A DNA stretch of 64,000 nt from Alphaproteobacteria bacterium (GTDB taxonomy: Bacteria > Pseudomonadota > Alphaproteobacteria > Acetobacterales > Acetobacteraceae). Both the position numbers and the translations under genes were made by a program. The stretch is from NCBI GenBank assembly GCA_017307285.1, contig JAFKFI010000050.1, positions 1 through 64,000 of the forward strand, in the 5' to 3' direction. Below the pieces are notes generated by a model. It had not been told where the DNA came from and did no database searches. It worked only from the letters and a program-made list of their open reading frames with translations. Shown one piece after another: positions 13,341 to 32,552 of this stretch. Position 1 is the first letter of the stretch, and each line of letters opens with the position of its first letter.

Positions 13341-14591
13341 TCACCGACCTACCTCCCCGGTCAGCGTTTCGTATCCGTCGGGTTGCGCAAAGATTGGCGG
13401 CCTCTTGTGCCACACCGGGCCGTGGTGGCCTTGCGCATATCCATACTCGAACAACGCCTGCATGTAGGCTGTATCGAAATTCTGCTTGTGTGGCGCTGTG
13501 AAGTCTTGTCCGATATAGGCCAGGTTGTAATCCACGCCGTCGCGTTGTGACGTAAAATAGATCCGCACTACGTCGTTGTACCCACTATAGTGGATCATCG
13601 TTGCGATTGCTCGGCCGGTGATACTTAGCAGCCGCCGGTCGGTGGAAGCCCATTCGGGGTCCAGGCGTGCGTTGCGGATTACGTAAGCGGTGCGCTGGCG
13701 CGCATGCTCTTTCGCACGCAAATTTACCGCTTCGCCTACGGCGCTAGGAATCAGGAAGGTCTGGGCCACTGCCCCACCGTCAACATGCATTTCCTGGTAT
13801 TGATGCCCATCGAGCTCGACGTCGATCAGCACGGGAGGAAAGGCGCCGGGGACGGACGCCGACGCAAGCAGGAGTTTGCGGAACAGATCCAGTGCGCCGG
13901 GGCGGCCGCTCGCAGCGATCGCACCGATATTCCAGATCACTGGACGTTGTGCGTCGAGATTGGTCGTGCCGATCAGCAGCAGGCGCCCCCGCTGATACTC
14001 CCGCGCGATCTCGTCGAGCATCCGCTCATTCGCGTATCGCGATATCAGGCGAAATAGAGGATCGGTGCCGGCCAGCGCATCGCTGAACACCGCGCTCGGG
14101 ACCCATCGTTCCTCGTACACATCGGCCGGACCAATCGTCGTGTAGACCTCCCGCAGTTGCGCATCATACGACGGACCGAGAAAGGCGAACGGTGCGATCA
14201 GAGAGCCGGTGCTGATGCCGGTGACGAGCTTGAACTCCGGCCGGGTCCCCACTTCCGACCACCCCACCAGCAGCCCCGCGCCGAATGCGCCGTTATCAGA
14301 GCCGCCTGAGAGCCCGAGATAGCTGGCGGGCGCCAACACGCTCGACGGATTCGCTGCCCGCTCGCGCTCCAACGCCGCCCGCGCCTCCCGCACCATCGCG
14401 GGGCCGTCGGTATCGGCCCAGAACCGGGCATTCGGAATACCGAGCGGCTGTGCGCGCTGGGCTGCCTCGGTGGGTACGGCGGCCAAGCGAGCGGGAGCCG
14501 CACACCCCGCCATCCCTCCGAGCAGGAACAGCGCCGCTACCGCTCGCCACCGGGTGGGGCGCAACGTCAGCCAAATGAACGTGTCGCTCAT
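13341..14591 (-). CDS. Patatin-like phospholipase lipoprotein
   Basis: A 416-residue patatin-fold lipid acyl hydrolase. A lipoprotein signal ends in the lipobox GMAGC (Cys30), so it is probably membrane-anchored in the periplasm. The oxyanion loop is GLSGGSDNGAFGAG (93-106), the nucleophile elbow GISTG (Ser127), and the catalytic Asp lies in VDGGAV (Asp271). These make the Ser-Asp dyad complete. The ATG overlaps the acetate kinase stop (ATGA), making it the last gene of the DUF3141-pta-fabI-ackA operon. A role in releasing fatty acids from membrane lipid during the same stress is inferred from position. Confidence 0.85.
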   Translation of the reverse strand: MSDTFIWLTLRPTRWRAVAALFLLGGMAGCAAPARLAAVPTEAAQRAQPLGIPNARFWADTDGPAMVREARAALERERAANPSSVLAPASYLGLSGGSDNGAFGAGLLVGWSEVGTRPEFKLVTGISTGSLIAPFAFLGPSYDAQLREVYTTIGPADVYEERWVPSAVFSDALAGTDPLFRLISRYANERMLDEIAREYQRGRLLLIGTTNLDAQRPVIWNIGAIAASGRPGALDLFRKLLLASASVPGAFPPVLIDVELDGHQYQEMHVDGGAVAQTFLIPSAVGEAVNLRAKEHARQRTAYVIRNARLDPEWASTDRRLLSITGRAIATMIHYSGYNDVVRIYFTSQRDGVDYNLAYIGQDFTAPHKQNFDTAYMQALFEYGYAQGHHGPVWHKRPPIFAQPDGYETLTGEVGR

Positions 14592-15784
14592 TCTCCCGCG
14601 CCGGTCTCGAAAGCGTGGAGAGTATCGAATGTGTGCTGTGCGATCATGCGCTCCTCGTCGGTGGGGATTACCCAGGCCGAGACGCGGGATCTTTCAGCGC
14701 TGATGCGGCCGGCTCCGGCTTCGTTTCGAGCGGCGTCCGGCTCAAGACCGAGCCAGGCACAGCCCGTCATGACGCTGGCGCGCGTCATAGGATCGTTCTC
14801 GCCGATGCCGGCGGTAAAGACGAGCGCGTCGACCCCACCGAGCGCGGCGGCCATCGAGCCGATCTCGCGCACGATACGGTTGACGAAAAGCGCGATCGCC
14901 TCGGCAGCGCTCGCGTCAACGGAAGCGCGCAGCGTGCGCATGTCGGACGATATGCCGGACACGCCGAGCAGACCGGAGCGATGATATATGAGATCCTCGA
15001 TCGCTCGCGCATCCATGCCTTGCTCGTCCATCAGGTAGAGCAAGACGCCCGGATCGATCGCGCCGCAACGTGTGCCCATCATCAGCCCGTCGGCAGCGGT
15101 GAATCCCATCGTGCTTGCCACGCTGCGACCGTCTAACACCGCGCAGAGACTTGCGCCGTTGCCGAGATGCGCGATCACCACGCGCCCGCCGGCAAGCTCG
15201 GGCGCGACGGCGCGCAGGCGGGAGGAGACGAACTCGTATGACAATCCATGAAAGCCGTAACGGCGAACACCCGCCTCGGAAAACGCGCGGGGGATCGCGA
15301 AGGCCTGTGCGACCCAAGGCTGCGAGAAGTAGAAAGCGGTATCGAAGCACGCCACCTGAGCGATGTGCGGCGCGGCATCGGCGATCACCCGGATCGGCGC
15401 AAGGTTGTGCGGCTGATGCAGCGGCGCGAGCGACACAAGCGCGCCGAGTGCGTCGACAACGCCGGGTTCCACCCGCAAAGGGGCGGCAAACCGCGTTCCG
15501 CCATGCACGACGCGATGGCCGATGGCCGTCACTCGTGCTCCGCCGAGCAATTCCTGGCACGTCCGCAGGATCTGCAGCGTTGCCGCCGCGTGATCCAGCT
15601 CATTCGCCTTCCAGCCTTGCTCGGCAAGCGTTCGGCCCGCCGCGTCCGAAACCTTCAACTTCGGTGCGACCCCGATCGCCTCGATCTGACCGCGCAGCCG
15701 CAGCGGCAGATCGTCGCCGGCTCCGTAGATCGCGAATTTGATGCTCGACGATCCGGCATTGAGCACGCCGAGGCAGCCCTGCAT
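14588..15784 (-). CDS. ackA: Acetate kinase
   Basis: A 398-residue acetate/propionate kinase: acetyl phosphate + ADP to acetate + ATP. The family start (VLNAGSSSIKFAIY, Asn9), TAIGHRVVHGG, the HLGNGASLCA phosphate loop, DGLMMGTRCGAIDPG and FTAGIGEN are all present, so the enzyme looks intact. The ATG at 15784 is chosen because the family N-terminus starts there; the frame runs back to 15916 inside fabI. It lies 19 bp after fabI and its stop overlaps the patatin ATG. Together with phosphoketolase (23329) and Pta it forms the ATP-yielding acetate branch. Confidence 0.95.
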   Translation of the reverse strand: MQGCLGVLNAGSSSIKFAIYGAGDDLPLRLRGQIEAIGVAPKLKVSDAAGRTLAEQGWKANELDHAAATLQILRTCQELLGGARVTAIGHRVVHGGTRFAAPLRVEPGVVDALGALVSLAPLHQPHNLAPIRVIADAAPHIAQVACFDTAFYFSQPWVAQAFAIPRAFSEAGVRRYGFHGLSYEFVSSRLRAVAPELAGGRVVIAHLGNGASLCAVLDGRSVASTMGFTAADGLMMGTRCGAIDPGVLLYLMDEQGMDARAIEDLIYHRSGLLGVSGISSDMRTLRASVDASAAEAIALFVNRIVREIGSMAAALGGVDALVFTAGIGENDPMTRASVMTGCAWLGLEPDAARNEAGAGRISAERSRVSAWVIPTDEERMIAQHTFDTLHAFETGAGE

Positions 15785-15803
15785 CGTTCTGGTCCTGAGC
15801 CGT

Positions 15804-16583
15804 TCAGGCGACGATATTCGCGCCGCCGTCGACATAGACGGTGCCGCCAGTGACCCGCCGCGCGAATGGCGTCGCGAGATAGGCGCAGGTGAAGCCGACA
15901 TCCATGATGTCCACAAGCTCCCCGATCGGCGACTTCTGTGCCGCTTCGTTGAGCAGCAGCTCGAAATCCTTGAGTCCCGACGCGGCGCGCGTCTTCAGCG
16001 GCCCTGGCGAGATAGCGTGGACCCTGATGTCCGAGGGGCCGAGCTCGAACGCGAGATAGCGGCACGCCGCCTCCAACGCCGCCTTCACTGGTCCCATCAC
16101 GTTGTAGTTCGGAACGACGCGATTGGCTCCGTAGTAGCTCATGGCGAACATCGTTCCCCCCTGGCTCATCAGCGGCGCGGCAAGCCGGGCCATGCGGATG
16201 AAGGAGTGGCAGGAAACGTCCATCGCCTTCGCGAATCCCTCGGCCGAGCAGTCGAGCAGGCCGCCCTGCAAATCTTCTTTCGGAGCAAAGGCGATCGAGT
16301 GGACGAGGATGTCGAGCTTGCCCCATTCGGCGCCGATGCGTTCAAACACCGCTTCGAGCTGTCCAGGCGCTGCGACATCCAGCGGGGCGGTGATCGTCGC
16401 CTCCAGCTCCTTGGCGAGCGGTTCGACGTACGGACGGGCCTTCTCGTTCAGCCATGTGATCGCCAGCTCCGCGCCGGCGGTGCGAAACGCCTTGGCGCAG
16501 CCATACGCAATCGAATGCTCGTTCGCGACGCCGACGACGAGCGCCCTGTGGCCGGTAAGCACGGGGCGGATTTGATCGCTCAT
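15804..16583 (-). CDS. fabI: Enoyl-ACP reductase (NADH), FabI type
   Basis: A 259-residue classical FabI. It reduces trans-2-enoyl-ACP in the last step of the fatty-acid elongation cycle. Visible are the cofactor loop GVANEHSIAYGCA (18-30), HSIAFAP (95-101), the catalytic Tyr-x6-Lys (Tyr160, Lys167 in NYNVMGPVKAAL) and ISPGPLKTRAASG. Its presence inside an acetate-forming operon is unusual: the housekeeping copy normally sits elsewhere. A role as an electron sink (fatty-acid synthesis consuming NADH) is inferred. The upstream pta frame overlaps this gene by 242 bases. Confidence 0.93.
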   Translation of the reverse strand: MSDQIRPVLTGHRALVVGVANEHSIAYGCAKAFRTAGAELAITWLNEKARPYVEPLAKELEATITAPLDVAAPGQLEAVFERIGAEWGKLDILVHSIAFAPKEDLQGGLLDCSAEGFAKAMDVSCHSFIRMARLAAPLMSQGGTMFAMSYYGANRVVPNYNVMGPVKAALEAACRYLAFELGPSDIRVHAISPGPLKTRAASGLKDFELLLNEAAQKSPIGELVDIMDVGFTCAYLATPFARRVTGGTVYVDGGANIVA

Positions 16584-17553
16584 GTGAATGCCCTATCGGA
16601 TTGCGGCGGCGGCGGCGGCGCGCATCCGCGACAAGTACCGCGACGGCGCAGGATGCCAGCCGGGTGATCTCGGAATCGGCGCGGCTCGTCAGGATGATCG
16701 GCACGCGCGCGCCGAGAATGATGCCGGCCGCATCCGCGCCCGCCAAAAATGTGAGGCTCTTGGCGAGCATGTTGCCCGCTTCGAGATCGGGGACGACAAG
16801 CACGTTGGCGCGGCCTGCCACAGGTGACTTGATCTGCTTGATCGCCGCCGCCTCTATGCTGATCGCGTTGTCGAGCGCGAGCGGTCCGTCGAGCACCGCC
16901 CCAGTGATCTGCCCGCGATCGGCCATCTTGCAGAGCGCAGCGGCCTCGATGGTGGACGGCACCTTGGGGTTTACCGTCTCCGTCGCGCTGAGGATCGCGA
17001 CCCGCACCTCCGGCGCGCCAAGCGCGTGCGCGAGGTCGATCGCGTTCTGCACGATGTCGATCTTCTCCTCGAGGCTGGGTGCGATATTCACCGCCGCGTC
17101 AGTGATGATGAGCGCCTGATCGTGTCCCGGCACATCCATGACGAAGCAGTGGCTGATGCGCCGCGCCGTGCGAATGCCGGTCTCGCGTGCCACGACGGCG
17201 CCCATCAGCTCATCGGTGTGCAGGCTGCCCTTCATCAGCGCTTCGGCGCGCCCGGCGCGGACGAGCTCGACGGCCTTCGCTGCGGCATCATGGCTGTGCG
17301 AGGCCTCGACGCGCTCGAACGGCGCAAGATTGACCTCGGCGAGTCGGGCCACCGCTTCGATCTTCGCAGGCGGCGCGACCAGGATCGGAGTGATCAAACC
17401 GAGCCGAGCCGCCTCGATCGCGGCTTGCAGCGGCACTGCGTTGCAGGGATGGGCGACGGCGGTGACGATCGGCGGCCGCGCTCTGGCCGCCGCGATCAGC
17501 CGCTCGTACTTGTCATGCGGCGCGCGCGGTGTGGCGGAGCTGGCGTCAGGCAT
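16342..17553 (-). CDS. pta: Phosphate acetyl/butyryltransferase, C-terminus frameshifted
   Basis: A single-domain phosphotransacetylase (acetyl-CoA + Pi to acetyl phosphate + CoA). The family domain covers residues 15-312 (VMDVPGHDQALIITDAAVNIAP; LDGPLALDNAIS; GARVPIILTSRADS). After VLVADA the frame enters six Arg codons made of (CGC)6 and then runs out of frame through the first 242 bases of fabI, adding about 85 Arg-rich shadow residues. In the neighbouring frame the same repeat reads Ala codons and stops at TAG (16593-16595), 9 bp before the fabI ATG, as expected for a normal gene end. A one-base slip in the repeat is likely. The start overlaps the DUF3141 stop by 8 bases. Confidence 0.85.
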   Translation of the reverse strand: MPDASSATPRAPHDKYERLIAAARARPPIVTAVAHPCNAVPLQAAIEAARLGLITPILVAPPAKIEAVARLAEVNLAPFERVEASHSHDAAAKAVELVRAGRAEALMKGSLHTDELMGAVVARETGIRTARRISHCFVMDVPGHDQALIITDAAVNIAPSLEEKIDIVQNAIDLAHALGAPEVRVAILSATETVNPKVPSTIEAAALCKMADRGQITGAVLDGPLALDNAISIEAAAIKQIKSPVAGRANVLVVPDLEAGNMLAKSLTFLAGADAAGIILGARVPIILTSRADSEITRLASCAVAVLVADARRRRRRNPIGHSHERSNPPRAYRPQGARRRRRERAFDCVWLRQGVSHRRRGAGDHMAEREGPSVRRTARQGAGGDDHRPAGCRSAWTARSGV

Positions 17554-19720
17554 GCGCCGGCTCTTTGCGGGCGGCGGCCGGTGTCTCGGCCTCGAACAAC
17601 GGTTCGATCTCCTGGAGACGGCGGCGGCCTTCCGAGTCGAGCGGACCGGTGGCGCCGACTACCCGGCGCAGCGCTTCCAAGGCGGCGCGACGTGGCGCCT
17701 GCTCGCGCGGCAGCAATTGGGGGATCGCCCGGATCGCCCGCCGCTCGTCGAGCCGGACAAGCAGATATTGCGTCCGTAGCACGTCCTTGAGCTGCGTCAG
17801 CGAGAGCCGACGGTCGGCGGGTTGCGCGGCGCGCACTGCCTGGATCATCCCAAACCCGCGCTCATCGGCGGTGCCGCCCGGAAGGCGGACATAGATTAGA
17901 GCGCGCAGCGCCGCCTCGGCAATCCCCCCGTGCTCGAACTGCATCTCGAGTTCGGCGCACAGCCTCGCCTTCGTGGCTTCGCGCGCGAGATCGTGCTCGA
18001 TGCGGCGCGGCGCGAGCGGCACCTGCGGACCGAGCCCAAAGGCGGCTTGAAGCACCGGCGAGCCGTAGGTATTGAGGAAGAACCACTCCATCCAGGCGTC
18101 GCGCGTTCGCCCGCAGAGATCGAGCCATGACGTGATCTGCTCCGATGCCGCCCTCTCCATCTCGACGAACGGATTGTCTGCCGGCACCGGCTTGCGATTG
18201 GCGCGCACTTGCCCCGCTAGCGATTTGACCGGCTGCATCGCCGGATTGTGGTCCGAGAAGAGCGCGAAGCGCAGCCTGTTAGGATGCAGCCGCCGCTGCA
18301 GCTCGGCGCCCTGCTCGGTCGTCAGTGCGCGCACCGTGGGGGCGGCCAGCGTGCGATAGAGGCCGAGCGCGGACTCTGAGACGCGCGCCGCGGTCGCGAA
18401 GCGGAGATCGTCCTCGGGCGTATTGCCGCCAAGCGCACGGATATGATTGAGGGTCCGGGTTTCGAGGCGGAACAGGTATTTTCCCTGGATAAGCTCGGGA
18501 TGCTCGATCCCCGGCTCGACCTCAGTGATGACCGCCTCGTAGAGCCCCGGCGGAAGCACATTGATCATCTCCATGCAGGCCGCGAATTCGCCATGCTCCT
18601 TGGTCGCGACCTTGCCGGAGACGAAGATGCCCAGATGCCCGATTGTCTGGTGCAGCGTGTAAACCACCGTCTGGCCATTTTCCACGATCTCCCGCTCGTG
18701 TTCGTAGAGATCGGTGATCCAGCCGAGCGCCTGCTGGGGTGGCGTGATGTTGTCGCCCCATGAGCAGAACACGATGATCGGCGAACGGATGTTGCGCAGA
18801 TCGACGCGCAGCCCGTCGGAGGTGCGGATCTCGCCGGTCGCGAGCTTGTTGCCGACGAACAGATTGTCGGCGATCCACTGCATTTCCGCGGCGTTCAGCA
18901 GCACCGGATTGCCCCACCACGCCTCGAAGTCGAGAAAGCGCCCGGCCTCCTGATCGATGTTGGCGTAGACGTTGTACGGCTTCTGCCAATACGTGTTGGC
19001 CAGATTGAGCGATTCGAAGTTCGCGACCAGGTCGGCACCGTCGAAGATGCCGTTGCCGACATCGCCGGTGAACGCGGTCAGCCATGTGCCGCCCAGCACA
19101 CCGCCCAGGTAGCGCATAGGGTTCTTGCCGCGCACCCCGGCCCAGTAGGAGAGCGGCGAGCCCGCGAGCATGATCGGCCCGACGAGTTCCGGCCGCATCG
19201 CTGCCATCATCATGATCTGCCAACCCGCCTGACAGTTGGCGACGATCACCGGTTTGCCATCGGCCTCGGGATGCAGTGCCGCGACTTCCTCGACGAACAC
19301 CGCCTCCGCGCGGCAGACATCCTCGATCGTCTGTCCGGGAACCGGCTCCGGAAGAAAGCCGACGAAGTAGCAGGGGTGCCCGGCGGCAAGTGCCACGCCG
19401 ATCTCGCTCTCCTGCTTCATCCCGCCAATGCCCGGCCCGTGACCCGCGCGCGGATCGACCACGATGAAGGGCGGCTTGCTGAGGTCCACCTGCACGCCCT
19501 CTGGCGGCCGGATGCGGACCAGAAGGTAATTGACGGGACGCGGCAGGGTACGACCATCGCGGATGAGCTCAGTCCCGAACATCAGCACGTTCGGCACCTT
19601 GCTCGCCTTCTGCACGAGATAGTGGTTGCCGCGCTCGCGCAGCACATCGAGCAACAGGACCGAACGCTGGCACGCATCGATCCAGTAGTCGCACATCGCC
19701 TGCAAGCCATTCAGCAACAT
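17546..19720 (-). CDS. DUF3141 alpha/beta-hydrolase-fold protein
   Basis: A 724-residue DUF3141 protein, a family related to poly(3-hydroxyalkanoate) synthases. The N-terminal half holds an alpha/beta-hydrolase core: PPFIVVDPRAGHGPGIGG, then the nucleophile elbow VANCQAGWQ with Cys in the PhaC-like position, and GDNITPPQQALGWI and the HQTIGHLGIFVSG His region. The C-terminal third is helical and unassigned. The ATG at 19720 is preferred over GTG 19804 because AGGAGC lies just upstream. It is the first gene of the five-gene operon and about 100 bp downstream of a strong FixK-like box. Whether it polymerises, hydrolyses or transfers acyl groups is unknown. Confidence 0.85.
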   Translation of the reverse strand: MLLNGLQAMCDYWIDACQRSVLLLDVLRERGNHYLVQKASKVPNVLMFGTELIRDGRTLPRPVNYLLVRIRPPEGVQVDLSKPPFIVVDPRAGHGPGIGGMKQESEIGVALAAGHPCYFVGFLPEPVPGQTIEDVCRAEAVFVEEVAALHPEADGKPVIVANCQAGWQIMMMAAMRPELVGPIMLAGSPLSYWAGVRGKNPMRYLGGVLGGTWLTAFTGDVGNGIFDGADLVANFESLNLANTYWQKPYNVYANIDQEAGRFLDFEAWWGNPVLLNAAEMQWIADNLFVGNKLATGEIRTSDGLRVDLRNIRSPIIVFCSWGDNITPPQQALGWITDLYEHEREIVENGQTVVYTLHQTIGHLGIFVSGKVATKEHGEFAACMEMINVLPPGLYEAVITEVEPGIEHPELIQGKYLFRLETRTLNHIRALGGNTPEDDLRFATAARVSESALGLYRTLAAPTVRALTTEQGAELQRRLHPNRLRFALFSDHNPAMQPVKSLAGQVRANRKPVPADNPFVEMERAASEQITSWLDLCGRTRDAWMEWFFLNTYGSPVLQAAFGLGPQVPLAPRRIEHDLAREATKARLCAELEMQFEHGGIAEAALRALIYVRLPGGTADERGFGMIQAVRAAQPADRRLSLTQLKDVLRTQYLLVRLDERRAIRAIPQLLPREQAPRRAALEALRRVVGATGPLDSEGRRRLQEIEPLFEAETPAAARKEPAHA

Positions 19721-19819
19721 CGGAGCTCCTGCTTCGCCGTGGACCCGCCGGCTGTCGGCAGGCGAAGACGCCGGCGAGACGACGCGCATCCACCCTCCCG
19801 GCACGCGAAAGCGGCCTCA

Positions 19820-19833
19820 TTGATCTAACTCAA
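19820..19833. promoter_or_regulatory. FixK/FNR-like box between divergent operons
   Basis: TTGATCTAACTCAA matches TTGAT-N4-ATCAA at nine of ten positions. It lies between the acetate operon (minus strand, from 19720) and the DUF3300 gene (from 19857) and could serve either or both. Confidence 0.65.
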
Positions 19834-19856: not shown

Positions 19857-21422
19857 ATGCTATTCGCCATGAGAGCAAGCCGAACGTGGCTCGGATGCGC
19901 CTCGCGGCTCGCCGCGAGTTGCCTGATGCTTCATGCCGGCATCTTGCCTATGGCCAGCGCGCAGCCCGCCCCGCCCCCCGGTGCCGCGGCAGCCCCGACC
20001 GCGCAAGCGGGTTCGGCCTTCACAATCCAGCAGATCGACGCCCTGCTCGCGCCGATCGCGCTCTATCCCGACACGCTGCTGACGCAGATGCTGATCGCCT
20101 CCACCTTTCCCTTGCAGGTCGTGGCTGCGGCGCGCTGGCTGAAAGAGCCTGGGCATGCGGACCTGAAGGGAGACGCGCTGACCAAGGCGCTCGAGCCGCT
20201 CGACTGGGACCCAAGCGTGAAGTCGCTCATCCCCTTTCCGCAGGCACTCTCACAACTGGATAACAATCTCGAATGGACCCAGCAGGTCGGCTACGCCTTT
20301 GCCAACCAGCAAAAGGAAACGATGGACAGCATCCAGCGTCTGCGGCGCCAAGCTCAAGCGGAAGGCAATCTCAAATCCACTCCGCAGCAGGTGGTGCTTA
20401 CCGAGGGGACCGACGGCGCGGTCTCTGCCGCTGGCGCGTCAACGGGCGCGGGCGCTTCGTCAAGCAATACGATTGTCATTCAGCCCGCCGACCCAGACGT
20501 GGTCTACGTGCCGAGCTATAACCCGGCGAGTGTGTATGGCACCTGGCCCTATCCCGCCTATCCGCCGGTGGCAGCCTACCCCGCTCCGGTCTACATGCCC
20601 GGGACGGCACTGATGAGCGGGCTCGTCTTCGGAGCAGGTGTCGCGATCACTGCGGGGCTTTGGGGGTGGGCCGGCAGCAACTGGAACAACGGCAGCGTCA
20701 ACATCAATGCGAACCGCTGGAACAACATCAACGTCAACCGGGCGCGGACCGCTGCCAATACCTGGAGCCCGTCGCTCAACCGGGCCGGCGGGCGAACGCC
20801 AGCCAACCTGAGCCGGCCGCCGGCGGGGCCAGTCGGCCGTCCTGGGCGGAACAATGGCTTGCCGGCGAACGCAATAGGGCGACAGAGCGTCGGCGTTGCT
20901 CCCGGACTCGTGGACCGACCCCGTCCCCCGTCAGGAGCCGGCAATCTGCCGAACCGTCCCAATCTCAGCCCCGGAAGCCGTCCGGGCGGCGGCCAAGTTC
21001 AACGGCCCAGCGGAGGTCAAGGCCAGCGGCCGGGAGCCGGCCAGGGTCAACGGCCTGGCGGCGGTCAGGTCCAGCGCCCCGGCGGGGGCCAGGTTCACCG
21101 CCCTGGGGCCACACCCGGCCAGTTGCCGGCCCGTCAGCCGGGTCAAGGCGGCAGGCCGGGACCGAGTGCCGGGAACTTGCCACGCCAGCAGCCGGGTGGC
21201 TTCGGCGGACAAAGACCAAATCAGGGCGCTTTCGGCGGCATCGGCGAGGGCAATCGCGCGGCGGCTTACGGACAGCGAGGGATGCAGAGCAGGCAATTGG
21301 GCGGCGCGCAGCAGTTCGGCGGGCGCGGCGGCGGCGGCTTCCAAGGTGGAGGCGCGCCGCGTGGCGGCGGGGGAGGATTTAGGGGCGGTGGTGGCGGCGG
21401 TCGTGGCGGCGGACGACGATAG
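19857..21422 (+). CDS. DUF3300 exported protein with Gly-rich tail
   Basis: A 521-residue exported protein. A signal peptide (to about residue 35, ending PMASA) precedes the DUF3300 domain (about 55-270: QIDALLAPIALYPDTLLTQML ... DPDVVYVPSYNPASVYGTWPY). A short hydrophobic stretch (ALMSGLVFGAGVAITAGLWGW) follows. The C-terminal 220 residues are low complexity, with five octapeptide-like repeats of the form GxGQxQRP around 375-415, and the tail is nearly all Gly and Arg. The start may be ATG 19857 or 19869. It is directly followed by DUF2950, a frequent partner, and shares the FixK-like box with the divergent acetate operon. Function unknown; probably envelope-associated. Confidence 0.85.
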   Translation: MLFAMRASRTWLGCASRLAASCLMLHAGILPMASAQPAPPPGAAAAPTAQAGSAFTIQQIDALLAPIALYPDTLLTQMLIASTFPLQVVAAARWLKEPGHADLKGDALTKALEPLDWDPSVKSLIPFPQALSQLDNNLEWTQQVGYAFANQQKETMDSIQRLRRQAQAEGNLKSTPQQVVLTEGTDGAVSAAGASTGAGASSSNTIVIQPADPDVVYVPSYNPASVYGTWPYPAYPPVAAYPAPVYMPGTALMSGLVFGAGVAITAGLWGWAGSNWNNGSVNINANRWNNINVNRARTAANTWSPSLNRAGGRTPANLSRPPAGPVGRPGRNNGLPANAIGRQSVGVAPGLVDRPRPPSGAGNLPNRPNLSPGSRPGGGQVQRPSGGQGQRPGAGQGQRPGGGQVQRPGGGQVHRPGATPGQLPARQPGQGGRPGPSAGNLPRQQPGGFGGQRPNQGAFGGIGEGNRAAAYGQRGMQSRQLGGAQQFGGRGGGGFQGGGAPRGGGGGFRGGGGGGRGGGRR

Positions 21423-22379
21423 ATGATGAGGCGCAGATGGCCCCTGATTGCGTGTCTGGTGCTGGCCTCCCCTCTTGCGTGGCGCCCCGTTCCGCCGGCG
21501 AGTGCCGCGGAGCAAACCGGATTCAAGACGCCGGATGATGCCGTCGCGGCCTTGGTCGGAGCGCTGCGAAGTGACGATCGGGAAGCTTTGGCCAATGTGC
21601 TCGGGCCTGGTAGCGAGAACCTGGTGCACTCCGGCGACCCGGTGAAGGACCATCAGGAGGCGCAACGCTTTCTCGATGCTTACGGCGAGCGTCATACGCT
21701 CGTTCCCGAAGGACAGGACCGGATCTCCCTCCATGTTGGCGCGAACGATTGGCCGCTGCCGATCCCGCTGGTGCGCCACGACGGGAAATGGGTGTTCGAG
21801 TCACACGAAGGTGCACAGGAAATCGTGGATCGACGGATCGGTCGCAATGAGATCGCCGCGATCCGTTTCGCGTTAGCCTATGTGGACGCGCAGCGCGCCT
21901 ATTTCGACCTCTTCAAGGACGTAACCGGCAAGGGCCGGTACGCCATGCGTCTCGCCAGCACCCCCGGAAACTATGACGGTCTCTACTGGCCGCCCAACCC
22001 GGGCATTCCTGAAAGCCCGTTCGGCCCGCTGGTCCAGAGCGCGGTCGAGGAGGGCTATCCGGGCCAGGTCGAAGCTGGGAAGCAGATCCCTTACCAGGGC
22101 TACTATTACCGCGTCCTCACCGGACAGGGCCCTAACTCACCCGGCGGCGCGAGGAGCTACATGCACGGCGGCCTCATGACTGGCGGCTTCGGGCTGATCG
22201 CCTGGCCCGCGACGTACGATGCGTCGGGCATCATGACGTTTGTTGTCGACCAGGATGGGGTCGTGTTCCAGAGAGATCTCGGCGCCGACACGGGCGCGCG
22301 CGCGTCTGCGATCAAATCCTTCGATCCGGGACTCGACTGGACGCGCGTCGTGGTCGGGTCGGAGGCCAGCTCGCATTGA
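21423..22379 (+). CDS. DUF2950 exported protein
   Basis: A 318-residue periplasmic protein of the DUF2950 family. A signal peptide ends near PPASAAEQ, followed by the family opening GFKTPDDAVAALVGALRSDD, then ESHEGAQEIVDRRIGRNEIAAIRFALAYVDAQRAY and the conserved QGYYYRVLTGQGPNSPGGARSYM / GGFGLIAWPATYDASGIMTFVV blocks. It starts immediately after the DUF3300 stop, so the pair is cotranscribed. No enzymatic role is known to me; the constant pairing suggests a joint envelope function. Confidence 0.88.
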   Translation: MMRRRWPLIACLVLASPLAWRPVPPASAAEQTGFKTPDDAVAALVGALRSDDREALANVLGPGSENLVHSGDPVKDHQEAQRFLDAYGERHTLVPEGQDRISLHVGANDWPLPIPLVRHDGKWVFESHEGAQEIVDRRIGRNEIAAIRFALAYVDAQRAYFDLFKDVTGKGRYAMRLASTPGNYDGLYWPPNPGIPESPFGPLVQSAVEEGYPGQVEAGKQIPYQGYYYRVLTGQGPNSPGGARSYMHGGLMTGGFGLIAWPATYDASGIMTFVVDQDGVVFQRDLGADTGARASAIKSFDPGLDWTRVVVGSEASSH

Positions 22380-22699: not shown

Positions 22700-22716
22700 C
22701 GACCTCCTCCCGCTGC

Positions 22717-25764: not shown

Positions 25765-26493
25765 ATGAGCGAGGGACCTCTCGCGGCGATCTTTGATGTG
25801 GACGGCGTGCTGGTCGATTCTCCGCACGAGCGCGCGTGGCGCGAGGCGCTGGCGGGCTTCGCCGACCCGGCGCGCTTCACGACTGCCTTCTACCAGGAAT
25901 ATGTCGCGGGCAAGCCCCGGATGGAGGGAGCGCGGGCGGTGCTGGAGCGGCTTGGCGGTCCTGGCATGGTCGCGCGCACGAACGAATACGCGGTCGCGAA
26001 GCAGGCGCTGATCGACCGGCTGATCGAGGAGGGAAGCTTCGAGGCATTCCCGGACGCGGTGCGCCTCGTCGCCAGGCTGCACGAGGCCGGACTCAAGCTC
26101 GCACTTGCATCGTCATCCCGCAATGTCGGCGCGATGCTGCGCCAAATACGGCTGCCGGATGGTCGCGCGCTGTTGCCGCTGTTCGCCGCCGATCTCAGCG
26201 GCCGCGAGGTGCCGCACGGCAAGCCGGACCCAGCGCTGTTCCTGCTCGCGGCCGAGGCATTGGGGATTGTTCCGGCGCGTTGCCTGGTCGTCGAGGACGC
26301 GCCGGCAGGCGTTCGTGCCGCGCGGAACGGCGGAATGACGGCTCTCGGCATCGCGCGGCTCGGGGACGAAATCCTGCTGCGGGAGGCGGGCGCCGATCTC
26401 GTGCTCACCAGCCTGGACAAATTGGATGTCGGTGCGCTGGCGAGCGGCGCGCTGCGTGCCTATCCCGCTTCGGAGGACGCACCGCATGCTTGA
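25765..26493 (+). CDS. pgmB: HAD-superfamily beta-phosphoglucomutase-like enzyme
   Basis: A 242-residue HAD subfamily IA protein. The nucleophile motif is FDVDGVLVDS (Asp11 and acid/base Asp13), the helical cap carries FYQEYVAGKPRMEGARAVLERLG, motif II is ALASSSRN, and motif III/IV are HGKPDPALFLLAAEALG and CLVVEDAPAGVRAARNGGM. This is the beta-phosphoglucomutase pattern: beta-glucose 1-phosphate to glucose 6-phosphate. The assignment is strengthened by the GH65 phosphorylase gene, which overlaps its end by 8 bases and would supply beta-glucose 1-phosphate. Confidence 0.88.
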   Translation: MSEGPLAAIFDVDGVLVDSPHERAWREALAGFADPARFTTAFYQEYVAGKPRMEGARAVLERLGGPGMVARTNEYAVAKQALIDRLIEEGSFEAFPDAVRLVARLHEAGLKLALASSSRNVGAMLRQIRLPDGRALLPLFAADLSGREVPHGKPDPALFLLAAEALGIVPARCLVVEDAPAGVRAARNGGMTALGIARLGDEILLREAGADLVLTSLDKLDVGALASGALRAYPASEDAPHA

Positions 26494-28771
26494 GGCACTG
26501 CAACCAACGCCCGAGCCCGGTTGGGTTCTAACTCATGATGGCTACAGCGTGCTGACCGAGAGTGCCGTCGAATCCCGCTTTGCCTTCGGCAACGGATTCC
26601 TGGGTATGCGGGCGGCTCGTTCGGTCAGCCGTGGCCCGACCTGGACGAGCTGGCTCGGCTACATCCGCTGGTCATCATGGCCGCGCTGCTATCTTGCCGG
26701 CCTGTTTGACATCCCCAACACCGATCCGCCTGTGCCTGCCCTGGTGCCGATTGCCGATTGGTGTCGCGTGCGCGTGCTGCTCGATGACGTACCGCTGCTC
26801 GGGCATGAAGGCGAGATACTTCTCGGCACCCGTACGCTCGATATGCGACGGGGCGCGCTGCTCTCGTCCTGGACGCATCGCACGCCCGCCGACATTACCG
26901 TCACGGCCCGCGAACTACGCTTACTCTCGCTCGCGGACCGTGCGGCGGGGCTGCAACTACAGCGGCTCTCCTTAGACCGAGATGGCGTTGAGGTGCGGAT
27001 CGAGGCGACCTTCGGCCTCGCCGGCCTCGGAATGGAACCGCTGCGGCTTGAGGACAACCTCGGCGCCTGGCGCACTGAGGGCACGGGGAAGTCGGTCGCT
27101 ATGATGGGCGCCGCAACGCTGCGGCTTGATGGCGAGCAGCTGAGGCCCGAGCGCCCATTCCCGCTACGGAGCGTCTGGCGATGGCGTTCGGTCGCGGGAC
27201 AGGTCGCCGAGCTCGACCGGCTTGTCGCCGTGGCGCGCGCCGACGCGCCAGACGAGGATCCGGTGCCCCACGCCCGCGCGGCGTTGGAACGCAGCCGCTC
27301 GCTCGGCTGGCGCGGGGTACTGGCGGCGCACGAGGCGGCGTGGAGTGCGCGCTGGACTGCGGGGGGCGTGGAGATCGAGGGCGACGACGAGCTGCAACGG
27401 GCAGTACGCTTCGCTGTCTACCATCTCACCAGTGCGGCCAATCCGGAGGACGAGCGCGTCTCGATCGGCGCCCGCGGCCTTACCGGGGATGCCTATTTCG
27501 GCCACGTGTTCTGGGACACCGAGATCTACCTGCTTCCCTTCTACACCGCGACCTGGCCGGAAGCGGCGCGGTCTCTGCTGATGTACCGCTTCCACACGTT
27601 ATCCGGCGCGCGCGCTAAGGCCGCGCGGTCGGGCTACAAGGGCGCGCTCTACGCCTGGGAGTCCGCCGATACCGGCGTGGAGACTACACCCGAGAGCGTG
27701 CTCGGCTCCGATGGCAAGCCGGTCGAGATCCTTACCGGAAAAATGGAGCACCACATCAGCGCCGACGTTGCCTACGCGGTCTGGCAGTACTGGCAAGCAA
27801 CAGGCGATGACGATTTCTTCGTGCGCGCCGGAGCGGAAATCGTGCTCGAAACCGCGCGGTTCTGGGCATCTCGCGCAGTGCCCGAGTCGGATGGGCGACG
27901 CCATATCCGCCATGTCATCGGCCCGGACGAGTACCACGAGGACGTCGACGACAACGCATTCACCAACATGATGGCGCGGTGGAATCTCGCGCGCGGGCTC
28001 GAAACGGTAGAGATGCTCCGCTCCCGTTGGCCGGGCCGAGCCGCGGCACTGGAGGAGAAGCTTGAGCTCGGCTCCGAGGAGCTCGCCGACTGGCGTGACG
28101 CGACGGAGCGCATGGCGACGGGTCTTGACCCGGCAAGCGGTCTCTATGAGCAGTTCGCGGGCTTCCATGCTCTGGAGGCGCTGGACGTCGCGGCTTACGC
28201 CCACCACAAAGTGCCGATCGACGTCGTCATTGGCCGCGAGCGCACGCAGGGCGCGCAGGTGGTGAAGCAGGCGGATGTCGTGGCGCTGATCGCGCTGTTG
28301 CCCGAGGCGTTCCCAGGAGCGATGGCCAAGATCAACTTTCACCATTACGAGCCTCGCTGCGCGCACGGCAGCTCGCTGAGCGCGGCGATGCACGCACTCG
28401 TCGCGGCGCGCCTCGGGAATCCGGAGATCGCACTGCGCTATCTGCGTGAGACCGCGGCGCTCGACCTCGATCCCGATCCGAACAGCGCGGGCGGCATCCG
28501 CATCGCGGGGCTCGGTGGGTTATGGCAGGCGGTGGTCCTTGGGTTCGGCGGTATCGATCTCACAGGCGAGGCGCCGCGCATCGACCCCCATCTGCCGCCC
28601 GGGTGGCAGTCGCTATCGTTCCGCATTTGCTGGCGTGGGCGACGGATCGCGGTGCGCGTGACCGGAGACACGGTCGGGGTTGGGCTTGTGTCCGGCGGCG
28701 CGATGGAGATCGTGATCGCAGGCAAAACGTGCGAGCTCGAACCAGGCGCGACGGTAGAGGTGCCACGCTAG
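26486..28771 (+). CDS. GH65 disaccharide phosphorylase
   Basis: A 761-residue glycoside hydrolase family 65 protein (maltose, trehalose or kojibiose phosphorylase group): alpha-glucobiose + Pi to beta-glucose 1-phosphate + glucose. It has the N-terminal beta-sandwich domain (ESRFAFGNGFLGMRA), then the (alpha/alpha)6 barrel with GHVFWDTEIYLLPFY, the general-acid Glu region VIGPDEYHEDVDDNAFTNMM and the phosphate-site QVVKQADVVALI. It starts at ATG 26486, overlapping the HAD stop, with CGGAGG upstream. Substrate cannot be set from sequence; trehalose or maltose from glycogen are the natural candidates. Confidence 0.9.
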   Translation: MLEALQPTPEPGWVLTHDGYSVLTESAVESRFAFGNGFLGMRAARSVSRGPTWTSWLGYIRWSSWPRCYLAGLFDIPNTDPPVPALVPIADWCRVRVLLDDVPLLGHEGEILLGTRTLDMRRGALLSSWTHRTPADITVTARELRLLSLADRAAGLQLQRLSLDRDGVEVRIEATFGLAGLGMEPLRLEDNLGAWRTEGTGKSVAMMGAATLRLDGEQLRPERPFPLRSVWRWRSVAGQVAELDRLVAVARADAPDEDPVPHARAALERSRSLGWRGVLAAHEAAWSARWTAGGVEIEGDDELQRAVRFAVYHLTSAANPEDERVSIGARGLTGDAYFGHVFWDTEIYLLPFYTATWPEAARSLLMYRFHTLSGARAKAARSGYKGALYAWESADTGVETTPESVLGSDGKPVEILTGKMEHHISADVAYAVWQYWQATGDDDFFVRAGAEIVLETARFWASRAVPESDGRRHIRHVIGPDEYHEDVDDNAFTNMMARWNLARGLETVEMLRSRWPGRAAALEEKLELGSEELADWRDATERMATGLDPASGLYEQFAGFHALEALDVAAYAHHKVPIDVVIGRERTQGAQVVKQADVVALIALLPEAFPGAMAKINFHHYEPRCAHGSSLSAAMHALVAARLGNPEIALRYLRETAALDLDPDPNSAGGIRIAGLGGLWQAVVLGFGGIDLTGEAPRIDPHLPPGWQSLSFRICWRGRRIAVRVTGDTVGVGLVSGGAMEIVIAGKTCELEPGATVEVPR

Positions 28772-28807: not shown

Positions 28808-30028
28808 ATGCACGGGATACTCTCTCATCGGAGCCATTACGCACTCGACGGCGTGAACTTTTTCGTCGCAGCCATGCAGACGGGCTTCGGCGTCTTCGTG
28901 ACCGTCTATCTCGTCCAGAATGGCTGGGGTGCGGAGGCGATCGGCTTCGCTCTCACGCTCAGCACCGTCTCCAGTCTCGTAAGTCAGCTTCCGACGGGAG
29001 CGTTGATCGATCATCTCGCCGACAAGCGCCGCGCCGTCCAGGCCGGTGTCGCCGGCGTGGGGGCTGCCGCGCTCCTGCTCGCGCTCAGTGCGGCCCGGCC
29101 CGGCGTCTATCTCGCGCAGGTCCTGCAGGGGCTGACGAGCTCGCTTATCGCCCCAGGCATCGCTGCGATCAGCCTCGCCGCCGTCGGGCATGCTGGATTG
29201 TGCGAACGGATCGGCCGCAACGCCCGTTTCGCCTCAATCGGCAGCGGCCTCACCGCCGGGGTGATGGGGATTGCGGGGTCCTATTTTGAGCCTGTGGCGA
29301 TCTTCTGGCTCACTGCGGCGCTCGCCCTGCCAACGCTGCTGTTCGTCTCGCGCGTCGATCATCCGCGCACGGCCGAGATCACGCTCGCGGGCTCGGAGCT
29401 GGACGAAGGCCGGCCAAGCTGGGATGGATTGAAGGGCCTGATTCTAGATCGGCGATTGCTTGTGTTCGCGCTCTGCATCGTGCTCTTCTTTGCCGCGAGC
29501 GCCGCGATGTTGCCGGGTGTGGCAGCGCGCGTGACCAAGCGGTACGCAGACTTCGCTCCGCTGATCGTTGCCGGAACGATGCTTCTGCCGCAGGCCGTAG
29601 TGGCCGGCATTTCACCCTGGGTCGGTCGGACGGCTGAGCACGTCGGTAGGCGACCACTGCTGCTCCTGGGCTGGGGATTGGTGCCGCTCCAAGGCGTGCT
29701 CTACGCCACACTGCCCGGCGCCTACGCCCTTCCGATCTGCCTCGTGCTCAACGGCATCAGCGGTGCCGTCTTCGGCGTAATGATGACGGTGGTGGCCGCG
29801 GACCTGACCCGCGGTACCGGGCGGTTCAACCTGACGCTTGGCGCGCTAGGTGTTGCCATTTCGATCGGAGCGTCATTGAGTACGCTATTGGGTGGCCTGA
29901 CCGCCGCTACGCTCGGCGGTGCAGCGGCATTTCTCTTTTTGGCGTTGCTTGGGCTGCTCGGCGCCGTGCTTCTGTGGATCGGGCTGCCAGAAACCAAGCT
30001 GGTTGCCAGTGATTCAGCAGGAACTTAG
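28808..30028 (+). CDS. MFS transporter
   Basis: A 406-residue major facilitator with about 12 hydrophobic segments. The loop 2-3 motif region is PTGALIDHLADKRRAVQ, and the N- and C-terminal halves are joined by a polar loop (LAGSELDEGRPSWDGLKGL, about 195-215). It resembles drug/sugar-type MFS permeases without a specific signature. It lies between the GH65 and glycogen phosphorylase genes (gaps 36 and 25 bp), so sugar or end-product transport is plausible, but substrate is unknown. Confidence 0.85.
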   Translation: MHGILSHRSHYALDGVNFFVAAMQTGFGVFVTVYLVQNGWGAEAIGFALTLSTVSSLVSQLPTGALIDHLADKRRAVQAGVAGVGAAALLLALSAARPGVYLAQVLQGLTSSLIAPGIAAISLAAVGHAGLCERIGRNARFASIGSGLTAGVMGIAGSYFEPVAIFWLTAALALPTLLFVSRVDHPRTAEITLAGSELDEGRPSWDGLKGLILDRRLLVFALCIVLFFAASAAMLPGVAARVTKRYADFAPLIVAGTMLLPQAVVAGISPWVGRTAEHVGRRPLLLLGWGLVPLQGVLYATLPGAYALPICLVLNGISGAVFGVMMTVVAADLTRGTGRFNLTLGALGVAISIGASLSTLLGGLTAATLGGAAAFLFLALLGLLGAVLLWIGLPETKLVASDSAGT

Positions 30029-30053
30029 CGCGCTTTGACAAGCCGAGGAAGCG

Positions 30054-32552
30054 ATGGACGCAGACGCAGGGGACGACGGCGACACCAAGATGCCGACCGA
30101 ACTGCTCACCAAATATGGCTGTGGGCCGGTGCGGTTCACCGGGCATCACGACGCGCTCTATGAGCGCCATCTGATGTTCGACTTCGCGACCGATCCGGCG
30201 GCGGTCGGCGCGCGGGAGCGATACGAGGCCGTCGCGCGGTCGGTGCGGGACGTTCTATCGCAGCGATGGATACGCACGGAGCAGATCTATACCCGCGAGA
30301 ACGCGAAGCGCGTGTACTATCTGTCGATGGAGTTCCTGATCGGCCGCTCGCTCGCCAACAGCCTCATGAACATGCTGCTTGATCCGCTCGCGAGTCGGCT
30401 CGCCGCGGAGAAAGGGCTCGAGTGGATCGCCCTGCTCGAGGAGGAGGCCGATGCCGGACTGGGGAATGGCGGTCTCGGCCGGCTCGCGGCGTGCTTTCTC
30501 GACTCGATGGCGACGATGCAGCTCCCCGCGATGGGCTACGGGCTGAGATACGAATACGGCATCTTCCGGCAGTCGATCCAGAACGGCTGGCAGCAGGAGC
30601 ATCCGGACAACTGGCTGCGCCGTCCCGACCCTTGGGAAGTCGCCAAGCCGCTCGAGCAGGTGGAGATCAGGCTCGGATGCTCCTTTGAGGTGCGCGGCGG
30701 CACGCTCGGGGTGCGGTCCGGCGAGCCCTCTACGCTCCTTGGCATCCCATATGACCGTCCTGTCGTCGGTTACGGCGGGAACACGATCAACACGCTCCGG
30801 CTCTGGGCCGCGGCGGCACCCGACGTATTCGACTTCCAGGCGTTCAGCGCGGGCGAGTTCGTCAGCGCGCTCGCCGAACGGCTCTCGGCCGAATCGCTGA
30901 CCCGCGTTCTCTATCCGGATGACTCGACAAGTCTCGGCCAGGGACTTCGCTTCGTTCAGGAATACTTCCTTGTCGCCTGCTCGCTCGCCGATCTCGTGCG
31001 GCGCTTCCGGAAAAGCAACGCCGATTGGAATACGCTGCCCGACAAGGTGGCGATCCAACTCAACGACACACATCCCAGCCTCGCCGTGCCCGAGCTCATG
31101 CGCGTCCTGCTAGACGAGGCGGGTCTCGGCTGGGAGCAAGCCTGGGATCTCACACGGCGGACGCTGGCTTACACCAATCACACCCTGCTTCCCGAGGCGC
31201 TGGAGAAATGGCCGGTGGCCTGGTTCAGGGTCATGCTGCCGCGTCACCTCGAGATCATCTACGAGATCAATCGTCGCCTGCTCGCTGATGTACGCTCGCA
31301 GTTCCCGAATGACGAGGGTCGCATCGGACGCACAAGCCTTGTCGAGGAAGGCGCAGTCCCGAAGATCCGGATGGCCAATCTGGCCATCGTCGGCTCGCAC
31401 AGCACGAACGGGGTCGCCGCGATCCATTCGAGCCTTCTGCGTACCCAGACGGTCAAGGACCTAGCAGAAATCTTCCCAAACCGCTTCAACAACAAGACGA
31501 ACGGCGTGACGCCGCGGCGCTGGCTCAAGCTTGCCAATCCCAATCTCGCCCGCGTTGTGACGGACGCGATCGGGGATAGCTGGATCACCGACCTGGCCGA
31601 GCTCGAACGGTTGCGCCCGCTTGCCGACGATGCGGCCTTCCGTGGCGCGATCCGTAGGGCGAAGCATGAGGCGAAATCGGCATTCTCCGACTGGCTGCGT
31701 GCGACATCGGGCATCGTCGTGGACCCAGCCGCGATTTTCGACAGCCAGGTGAAGCGCATTCACGAGTACAAGCGTCAGACGCTGAACGGGCTCCGCGTGG
31801 CGGCGCTCTACAACAGACTCAAGGAAGATCCCGGTCTGGACATCGCGCCGCGAGTCTTCTTCTTCGCTGGCAAGGCGGCGCCCGCCTACCATCTGGCGAA
31901 GGTCATTATCAAATTCCTCAACGTCCTCGCGGTAACAATTGATGAGGATCCACGCGTGGGCGGCCGGATCAAGGTCGTGTTCCTGCCGGAGTACAACGTC
32001 TCGCTCGCCGAACGCCTGATTCCCGCCTCCGACGTCTCCAACCAGATCTCCACGGCGGGATACGAAGCGAGCGGCACCAGCAATATGAAATTCATGATGA
32101 ACGGCGCTCTTACCATAGGCACGAGGGACGGCGCGACGATCGAGATGGCCGAGGCGGCCGGGAAGGACAACTTTTTCCTGTTTGGCCTGACCGCCGAGCA
32201 AGTTGCGGAGAGCCGCGGTTGGTACAATCCGTACTGGCATTACGACCATGAGCCGGAAACGCGAGCCGCGCTGGATCTGATCCTCTCGGATCACTTTGGC
32301 CATCACGAGCCAGGTGCATTGCGGCCGCTCTCGGACAGCCTCCTTCGAGACGGTGATCACTACATGCATCTCGCCGATTTCGCTTCGTATCTCGACGCAG
32401 ATCGAAAGCTGCTGGAGCTCTATGCCGAGCCAGAAGCGTGGTCGCGGAAGGTCATTGCGAACGTAGCCAGTTCGGGGTGGTTTTCGAGCGACCGGAGCAT
32501 CGCCGAGTACGCTCACGATATCTGGGATCTCAAACCTTGTGCGATCCCGTAG
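30054..32552 (+). CDS. glgP: Glycogen/starch phosphorylase
   Basis: An 832-residue GT35 phosphorylase: alpha-1,4-glucan + Pi to alpha-glucose 1-phosphate. The N-terminal half has YYLSMEFLIGRSLANSLMN and DAGLGNGGLGRLAACFLDSMATM; the C-terminal half has QLNDTHPSLAVPELMR, KRIHEYKRQTLNGL and the PLP-lysine region EASGTSNMKFMMNGALTIGT. The length fits bacterial enzymes. It is the last gene of the phosphoketolase operon, so glycogen would be released without spending ATP and fed to the acetate branch. Confidence 0.95.
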   Translation: MDADAGDDGDTKMPTELLTKYGCGPVRFTGHHDALYERHLMFDFATDPAAVGARERYEAVARSVRDVLSQRWIRTEQIYTRENAKRVYYLSMEFLIGRSLANSLMNMLLDPLASRLAAEKGLEWIALLEEEADAGLGNGGLGRLAACFLDSMATMQLPAMGYGLRYEYGIFRQSIQNGWQQEHPDNWLRRPDPWEVAKPLEQVEIRLGCSFEVRGGTLGVRSGEPSTLLGIPYDRPVVGYGGNTINTLRLWAAAAPDVFDFQAFSAGEFVSALAERLSAESLTRVLYPDDSTSLGQGLRFVQEYFLVACSLADLVRRFRKSNADWNTLPDKVAIQLNDTHPSLAVPELMRVLLDEAGLGWEQAWDLTRRTLAYTNHTLLPEALEKWPVAWFRVMLPRHLEIIYEINRRLLADVRSQFPNDEGRIGRTSLVEEGAVPKIRMANLAIVGSHSTNGVAAIHSSLLRTQTVKDLAEIFPNRFNNKTNGVTPRRWLKLANPNLARVVTDAIGDSWITDLAELERLRPLADDAAFRGAIRRAKHEAKSAFSDWLRATSGIVVDPAAIFDSQVKRIHEYKRQTLNGLRVAALYNRLKEDPGLDIAPRVFFFAGKAAPAYHLAKVIIKFLNVLAVTIDEDPRVGGRIKVVFLPEYNVSLAERLIPASDVSNQISTAGYEASGTSNMKFMMNGALTIGTRDGATIEMAEAAGKDNFFLFGLTAEQVAESRGWYNPYWHYDHEPETRAALDLILSDHFGHHEPGALRPLSDSLLRDGDHYMHLADFASYLDADRKLLELYAEPEAWSRKVIANVASSGWFSSDRSIAEYAHDIWDLKPCAIP

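Follow-up and report, generated by a model that had tools for sequence, protein, structure and literature searches.

How could a supposed aerobe of the Acetobacteraceae earn adenosine triphosphate (ATP) once oxygen is gone? The question is raised by a block of genes at positions 13341-32552 of the DNA analysed here, a stretch of 64,000 nucleotides (the window) on contig 109 (JAFKFI010000050.1) of the 5.68 Mb draft genome GCA_017307285.1. The block contains two operons, one on each strand, encoding among others a phosphoketolase, two glycan phosphorylases, a phosphate acyltransferase, and an acetate kinase. Judging from the sequence, we consider it likely that the block is a low-oxygen energy module controlled by a regulator of the FixK/FNR type, in which reserves would be converted to acetate and ATP. 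If true, this would be an answer to the question.

The operons were called from strand and spacing, and family scans gave the order phosphoketolase-beta-phosphoglucomutase (bPGM)-like-GH65-MFS-glgP for the plus operon and DUF3141-pta-fabI-ackA-patatin for the minus operon. As stated in the original prediction, the two flank the DUF3300 and DUF2950 genes, and the PF11737 and PF11453 matches indeed fall between them. The pta, ackA, phosphoketolase, GH65, and glgP genes of that prediction were recovered, as were those for PPK2 and the pyrophosphate (PPi)-dependent phosphofructokinase (PFK); patatin, fabI, DUF3141, and the major facilitator superfamily (MFS) transporter had been omitted from it. 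The PPi-PFK and PPK2 genes had been placed in the block; both are real and lie approximately 9.5 kb and 0.6 kb outside it, respectively. The operons and the genes between them are as follows:

23329-25734, plus strand: phosphoketolase XFP1, first gene of the plus operon (XFP_N, XFP, and XFP_C domains all matched; subfamily model NF003619, 1522.8 bits, cut-off 962)
25765-26493, plus strand: bPGM-like HAD protein (TIGR02009 below cut-off; 4uw9)
26426-28771, plus strand: GH65 protein (PF03632, 376 bits; 3wiq, 411.4 bits)
28808-30028, plus strand: MFS transporter (PF07690)
30054-32552, plus strand: second glycogen phosphorylase, glgP (TIGR02093, 1058.9, cut-off 552.9)
17546-19804, minus strand: DUF3141, polyhydroxyalkanoate (PHA)-synthase-like, first gene of the minus operon (PF11339, 869.4 bits)
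16342-17553, minus strand: phosphate acyltransferase pta, phosphate-butyryltransferase-like (NF008852, 507.9 bits, cut-off 413)
15804-16583, minus strand: enoyl-ACP reductase fabI (NF005717, 452 bits, cut-off 337)
14588-15916, minus strand: acetate kinase ackA (TIGR00016, 342.8, cut-off 293.4; PF00871)
13341-14591, minus strand: patatin-like protein, last gene of the minus operon (PF01734, 47.8 bits, cut-off 27.7)
19857-21422, plus strand: DUF3300 protein (PF11737, 250.3 bits)
21423-22379, plus strand: DUF2950 protein (PF11453, 330.1 bits)

Predicted FixK/FNR boxes front both operons and an adjacent PPK2 unit:

13288-13301: palindrome CTGATCTGTATCAA, upstream of the 12722-PPK2 unit
12722-13237, minus strand: conserved protein upstream of PPK2, with no Pfam match
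11847-12698, minus strand: polyphosphate kinase PPK2 (PF03976; TIGR03707, 356.9, cut-off 301.8)
19820-19833: palindrome TTGATCTAACTCAA, between DUF3141 and DUF3300
23224-23237: palindrome TTGAGATAAATCAA, upstream of the phosphoketolase gene

The boxes were evaluated using a narrow pattern, TTGATN4ATCAA, and a broader FixK pattern, TTGAYN4RTCAA. With up to two mismatches, the window contained 22 sites of the narrow pattern, compared with an expectation of 8.5. With at most one mismatch, the window held 6 of the genome's 70 sites where 0.79 was expected (Poisson 0.00017, composition ignored); those at 13288, 19820, 23224, and 33811 are intergenic. At the same threshold, the broader pattern yielded 10 sites, of which 7 (6821, 7293, 13288, 19820, 23224, 33811, and 53344) fell within the 4256 bases of intergenic space, gene boundaries having been set by us. 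The mean over the other 59 permuted patterns was 0.32 intergenic sites, and the highest of these controls, with 6 and 4 sites, were similar in letters to the true pattern. Boxes occupy five consecutive promoter regions between 6.8 and 23.3 kb: those of a stand-alone receiver, an HlyD-AcrB pump, the 12722-PPK2 unit, the divergent DUF3141/DUF3300 pair, and the phosphoketolase. The palindrome at 23224, whose first base is 105 bp upstream of the phosphoketolase start, forms the centre of a longer palindrome of 24 bases, GCGCATTGA-N6-TCAATGCGC.

Genes for FixK-like, FixJ, and FixL-like proteins adjoin the PPi-PFK gene:

2515-3825, plus strand: PPi-dependent phosphofructokinase (NF010675, 608.8 bits, cut-off 273; solved PPi-PFK 3k2q, 598.9 bits)
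3872-4615, minus strand: FixK-like CRP/FNR regulator (equivalog model NF050806, 176.7 against a cut-off of 300; best solved relative FixK2, 4i2o, 141.3 bits)
4676-5311, plus strand: FixJ-type response regulator (equivalog model NF006900, 255.6 bits, cut-off 255)
5301-6815, plus strand: FixL-like PAS-PAS histidine kinase with Gln201 (FixL equivalog model, 457.9 against a cut-off of 850)
6917-7282, plus strand: stand-alone receiver domain, named by eye, with a box-like site at 6821-6834 upstream

The FixJ protein barely exceeded its cut-off. The FixK-like and FixL-like proteins fell short of theirs, yet FixK2 is the closest solved relative of the former. The same four-gene set of CRP-type regulator, receiver, histidine kinase, and response regulator was found at locus L249.

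To place the minus operon in a wider context, DUF3141 genes were sought in named genomes; 575 matches were confirmed, and the 80 best of them were used. Counted over 84 loci, that is, these 80 and four plasmid loci, matches were found for pta at 55, fabI at 56, ackA at 49, and proteins like that at 12722-13237 at 19; PPK2 (13), XFP (4), DUF3300 (3), and glgP (1) were rarer. At these loci, the 12722-13237-like small proteins often adjoin PPK2. In Rhodobacter sp. CZR27, DUF3300 and DUF2950 are divergent from DUF3141-pta-ackA-fabI. The top-listed named relative of the window's DUF3141 is from a metagenome-assembled genome, 'uncultured Acetobacteraceae bacterium' (69%). A box was present upstream of DUF3141 in 28 of 79 stretches, each comprising the 500 bases before the start of the match (L130, which starts inside the gene, was omitted). 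These represent 11 of 42 genus-level groups by our own naming, and Bradyrhizobium accounts for 13 of the 28. As a control, 19 permuted palindromes were scanned, each of which occurred in at most 2 of the 79 stretches. The low-oxygen use proposed originally thus gains independent support from the boxes in five consecutive promoters, their proximity to FixJ/FixL/FixK-like genes, and the boxes upstream of DUF3141 elsewhere.

In the module as proposed, stored glucan and an alpha-glucobiose would be split with phosphate by GlgP and GH65. The products would enter the hexose phosphate pool via the bPGM-like protein, together with an isomerase and presumably a phosphoglucomutase encoded elsewhere in the genome. 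Acetyl phosphate would be formed by phosphoketolase through cleavage of fructose 6-phosphate or xylulose 5-phosphate, and acetate kinase would produce ATP and acetate from it. A Pta-type transacylase could route acetyl phosphate to acetyl-CoA; this may in turn be consumed by FabI and the PHA-synthase-like DUF3141, which would provide a reducing sink or a store. By known enzymology, no ATP is spent on activating a sugar released by phosphorolysis, and the phosphoketolase step yields no NADH. The full cycle to three acetyl phosphates needs transketolase, transaldolase, and fructose-bisphosphatase (FBPase). We infer the flux, its direction, its response to oxygen, and the part that PPi-PFK and PPK2 would play.

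The closest solved relative of the GH65 protein is the kojibiose phosphorylase 3wiq, no trehalose phosphorylase being among the solved relatives listed, and the Trp-Glu-Thr residues that we take to form the +1 subsite of 3wiq are identical in the alignment. The protein is probably an alpha-glucobiose phosphorylase. The genome already has one glgP on another contig, in a classical glgP-glgC-glgA-glgX cluster whose glgA and glgX were identified by eye from their translations; that of the window, 47% identical to it, is thus a second copy. No FixK/FNR box was found in 20 kb around the classical cluster at the threshold used. The link to glycogen is strengthened by this additional, dedicated glgP copy, and the fermentation of reserves to acetate, as originally proposed, fits the gene content in this respect. 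The PPi-PFK gene gave the only PF00365 match in the genome and is the sole PFK-family gene found. No class I FBPase was found in the genome; a GlpX-type FBPase is present, so PPi-PFK is not required as the sole gluconeogenic enzyme.

Several observations weigh against the low-oxygen reading, the first of which concern its control. The sites at 6821 and 7293 have two mismatches each to the narrow pattern. At the threshold used, 51 of the 79 DUF3141 upstream stretches had no box. When 500 bp upstream of XFP were scanned with at most one mismatch, a box was found directly upstream in two of seven family loci at >=82% identity (window included), and none within that distance in the other five. In support of the reading, the box in locus G253 starts 92 bp upstream of XFP, and boxes occur at the start of what appears to be a longer operon in G002, upstream of DUF2254-XFP-bPGM-GH65, and in G114, where a perfect box precedes AraC-2-hydroxyacid dehydrogenase-XFP; none was found for XFP in G117 (whose contig starts 885 bp upstream), G075, or G152. 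In the family, another 24 XFP loci (L210-L233) included only two with a box within 500 bp, and L122, L168, L183, and L199 had none within this distance. Perfect TTGAYN4RTCAA sites do occur near ackA-XFP or XFP, for example in L305, L309, L312, and L317, as instances with no control count. Finally, the FixL-like kinase has Gln201 at a column occupied by His in 26 of 29 relatives; of the other three, one is gapped, one has Asp where the alignment is poor, and one does not extend to this column. In FixL this His binds the haem, and haem binding by the sensor of the window may therefore depart from the usual mode.

The scarcity of boxes upstream of most other family XFP loci would be expected if the operons served normal sugar use with overflow to acetate in air, low oxygen having no special part. 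Phosphoketolase serves normal sugar use in acetic acid bacteria, XFP matches were found in 84 of 249 family genomes (E up to 0.001, a few weak), and the MFS transporter and GH65 protein would fit sugar uptake. We nevertheless regard this explanation as unlikely in view of the FixK/FNR boxes and FixLJ/FixK-like neighbours in the window, the boxes upstream of DUF3141 in other genera, and the FixK or FixK2 dependence of phosphoketolase genes reported in the excerpts of PMC9104804 and PMC3050613.

Other points against the low-oxygen module concern its completeness. Every step from glycogen to acetate had been assigned to the block, which proved incorrect: alpha-phosphoglucomutase, glucose-6-phosphate isomerase, glucokinase, and debranching enzyme were not among the block genes scanned, to which the search for phosphoglucomutase and glucokinase was confined. 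A glucose-6-phosphate isomerase gene was found on another contig. The predicted bPGM scored 130.3 of 153.35 with TIGR02009 and 98.1 of 189.4 with TIGR01990, below both NCBIfam cut-offs, and its closest solved relative (4uw9) is a beta-phosphoglucomutase. A comparison of the bPGM-GH65 pair with the seemingly similar Rv3400/Rv3401 of Mycobacterium tuberculosis yielded nothing of use. In addition, Pta is dispensable on the route from phosphoketolase to AckA, which makes a further role of the minus operon in an acyl-CoA branch (DUF3141, FabI) probable. Lastly, the whole plus operon including glgP was not found in the close relatives seen; in G002 and G075, the nearest relatives for which downstream DNA was seen, the XFP-bPGM-GH65 operon lacks glgP.

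This absence of glgP from the matching operon is what one would expect if the operons were unrelated and neighbours by chance. However, pieces of the block recur across genera: XFP-bPGM-GH65; XFP-glgP-ackA; glgP beside DUF3141-pta-ackA-fabI; and DUF3300-DUF2950 with DUF3141 or with PPK2 and pta. The clustering therefore looks more than chance, and we consider chance adjacency very unlikely.

The linkage of phosphoketolase to phosphorylases was evaluated using a tree of 40 phosphoketolases. XFP1 belongs to a clade of 16 rows (support 100/99), made up of Azospirillum, Rhizobiales, and close members of the family. Of these rows, 14 have a phosphorylase gene no more than 3 kb from XFP, as do 4 of the 24 outside (Fisher 1.3e-5, a value that ignores relatedness; three clade rows are Rhizobium near-copies). 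Within the clade, the phosphorylases are GH65 proteins of two types, glgP (GT35), or GH94; the four outside cases are one GH94, one GH65, and two weak glgP-like matches of 28-30%. As for the two clade exceptions, the L209 contig ends after bPGM, and the GH65 genes of L084 are 6.6 kb away. Linkage was scored from fetched DNA rather than from tree labels (L209 is labelled linked; L093, L298, and L303 are not so labelled). Several rows outside the clade are also on short contigs, and the count is biased in that some rows were reached via glgP, GH65, or DUF3141 searches. Using only fetched loci listed by XFP search, the proportions were 10 of 12 in the clade and 5 of 29 outside (Fisher 1.3e-4); this count includes eight plasmid loci (L318-L325) that are absent from the tree and were placed by identity, at least 76% being taken as inside.

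Plasmids were similar. Either glgP or GH94 adjoins XFP in all six records examined at >=76% identity (L282, L284, L286, L122, L320, and L321), taken from 25 listed, the remainder of which are mostly Sinorhizobium. Below 76%, six examined loci included one with an alpha-glucan phosphorylase (Leptolyngbya) and three with ackA (L323, L324, and L325). Plasmid glgP genes at 71-77% were near XFP, ackA, or DUF3141 in six of six cases, three of them near-copies. When six of 569 distant plasmid glgP genes were examined, five had no match to XFP, ackA, pta, or DUF3141 nearby. The sixth, from Caballeronia, has pta, ppk2, DUF3300, and DUF2950 at distances of up to 15 kb, which weakens a simple split between close and distant glgP and supports the block as a whole. 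A GH94 protein, of approximately 1300 residues where measured, stands beside phosphoketolase in Rhizobiaceae and relatives (L122, L168, L183, L199, L286, L320, and L321).

Based on these counts, we tentatively suggest that one phosphoketolase lineage may have become a dedicated partner of glycan phosphorylases, with GH65, GT35/glgP, and GH94 linked to it in different Alphaproteobacteria, and with FixK/FNR control at least in the relatives of the window; as a whole this proposal remains doubtful. If upheld in an unbiased survey, the pairing would allow modules of this kind to be predicted by rule, and engineers of non-oxidative glycolysis would gain naturally paired enzymes.

Because DUF3141, FabI, and Ptb-like genes are present, a side branch to acyl-CoA or PHA is suggested for the minus operon and is a serious rival to a purely acetate-forming role. 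In its full form, in which the operon would chiefly shuttle acyl groups between phosphate and CoA and store or reduce C4 units, acetate not being the main product, it is possible, though we would not favour it. The closest solved structure to Pta is the phosphate butyryltransferase 7vg9 (228.3 bits), followed by a 'possible phosphate acetyl/butaryl transferase' (158.2 bits), and solved phosphotransacetylase or phosphate acetyltransferase entries score at most 64.9 bits. In 10 aligned sequences, Cys191, Asp351, and His390 of DUF3141 are invariant, a set that we take to resemble the catalytic triad of PHA synthase. The frequency of fabI at DUF3141 loci is also in keeping with such a role, as are two published systems: the lxa locus of Burkholderia cenocepacia, which in the excerpt of PMC6127331 contains Pta/Ptb alongside acetoacetyl-CoA reductase, and a mutant of Bradyrhizobium diazoefficiens in the PHA regulator phaR, in which pta and two ackA genes are induced according to the excerpt of PMC10888616. 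Against this, the kinase exceeded the cut-off of the acetate kinase model and scored 63.2 at best with butyrate kinase; the model passed by Pta, NF008852, is named phosphate acetyltransferase; acetyl phosphate from phosphoketolase is directly usable by AckA; and in 10 of the 24 tree rows outside the clade, ackA is found no more than 2 kb from XFP.

In the minus operon, the true start of ackA is probably inside its frame, its domain starting at residue 48-51, and that of DUF3141 is probably some 80 bp inside its frame. The pta frame (16342-17553) extends approximately 80 residues beyond the ends of its relatives in an Arg-rich stretch overlapping fabI, owing to a stop that was lost, a shift in frame, or an error in the sequence.

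The orfA-pta-ackA genes of Sinorhizobium meliloti are reportedly a PhoB-controlled phosphate-starvation module. A similar function here would suit phosphorolysis and PPK2, both of which handle phosphate, and the DUF3141 operon of Rhodobacter sp. CZR27 is near ugp and Na/Pi genes. We consider this explanation very unlikely; in the portion available of one PhoB paper, a word search located pta and ackA in the reference list only. A scan for Pho boxes revealed no excess of sites, with 2 found against 2.6 expected, neither in the block.

Additional features of the window are as follows:

22415-22813, minus strand: glycine-zipper protein (PF13436)
22717-23124, minus strand: Rap1a-domain protein (PF18602)
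41937-44414: second phosphoketolase, XFP2

In Caballeronia sp. Sq4a, DUF3300 and DUF2950 occur with a glycine-zipper gene, ppk2, and pta. XFP2 was placed outside the XFP1 clade and overlaps a molybdopterin oxidoreductase gene (39877-44414 for the two together) whose best model is formate dehydrogenase alpha, with a score far under the cut-off. A similar oxidoreductase gene lies approximately 7 kb from bPGM-GH65 in L080. An EndoU nuclease domain protein is encoded at 58366-59316, and the small open reading frame (ORF) after it (59595-59978) gave no match; the two resemble a toxin and a possible partner.

Among known systems, the proposed low-oxygen module resembles parts of the FixLJ-FixK2 regulon of B. 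diazoefficiens, where phosphoketolase and acetate kinase are under a FixK-type box (excerpts of PMC9104804 and PMC6515984); FixL/FixJ/FixK-like genes are found here as well. There, expression of bll2518-bll2517, encoding these two enzymes, drops approximately tenfold without FixK2, and the box is at -89 (PMC9104804, in part). In the window, XFP is instead followed by bPGM-like, GH65, MFS, and glgP genes, ackA is in the separate DUF3141-pta-fabI operon, and the FixL-like protein lacks the haem histidine. Similarly, the excerpt of PMC3050613 reports a 9.4-fold drop of the Rhodopseudomonas palustris phosphoketolase gene Rpal_1869 in a fixK mutant under one of six conditions, the others changing approximately twofold or less, and a predicted FixK regulon includes phosphoketolase and HlyD (PMC2908626, in part).

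The lxa locus is likewise a single large low-oxygen block with Pta/Ptb and phosphofructokinase, the low-oxygen role being predicted in the case of the window. As possible differences, a Pfam scan of the window's ORFs, several short ones being outside the scan, gave no universal stress protein, and the excerpted description of the lxa locus (PMC6127331) did not mention phosphoketolase, GH65, or glgP. Synechococcus elongatus survives anaerobic darkness via phosphoketolase and acetate kinase (PMC10365998, in part), and the aim of making ATP from sugar phosphates by way of acetyl phosphate, like the chemistry involved, would be shared with the function predicted here. In contrast, that excerpt describes no glycan-phosphorylase operon, and control is by inhibition of the enzyme by ATP.

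The closest arrangements found include XFP-glgP-glgX on Azospirillum brasilense p3 and XFP-glucoamylase-CBS/BON-glgP-ackA in Rhizobium sp. NXC24, both with glgP of the same subfamily; unlike the window, their fetched stretches gave no GH65 or bPGM match. Neither this operon nor a clade tied to three phosphorylase families turned up in the portions of the literature available, which is weak evidence of absence. Each part, as well as FixK control, is already known in kind, and the coupling of phosphorylases to one phosphoketolase clade is apparently new.

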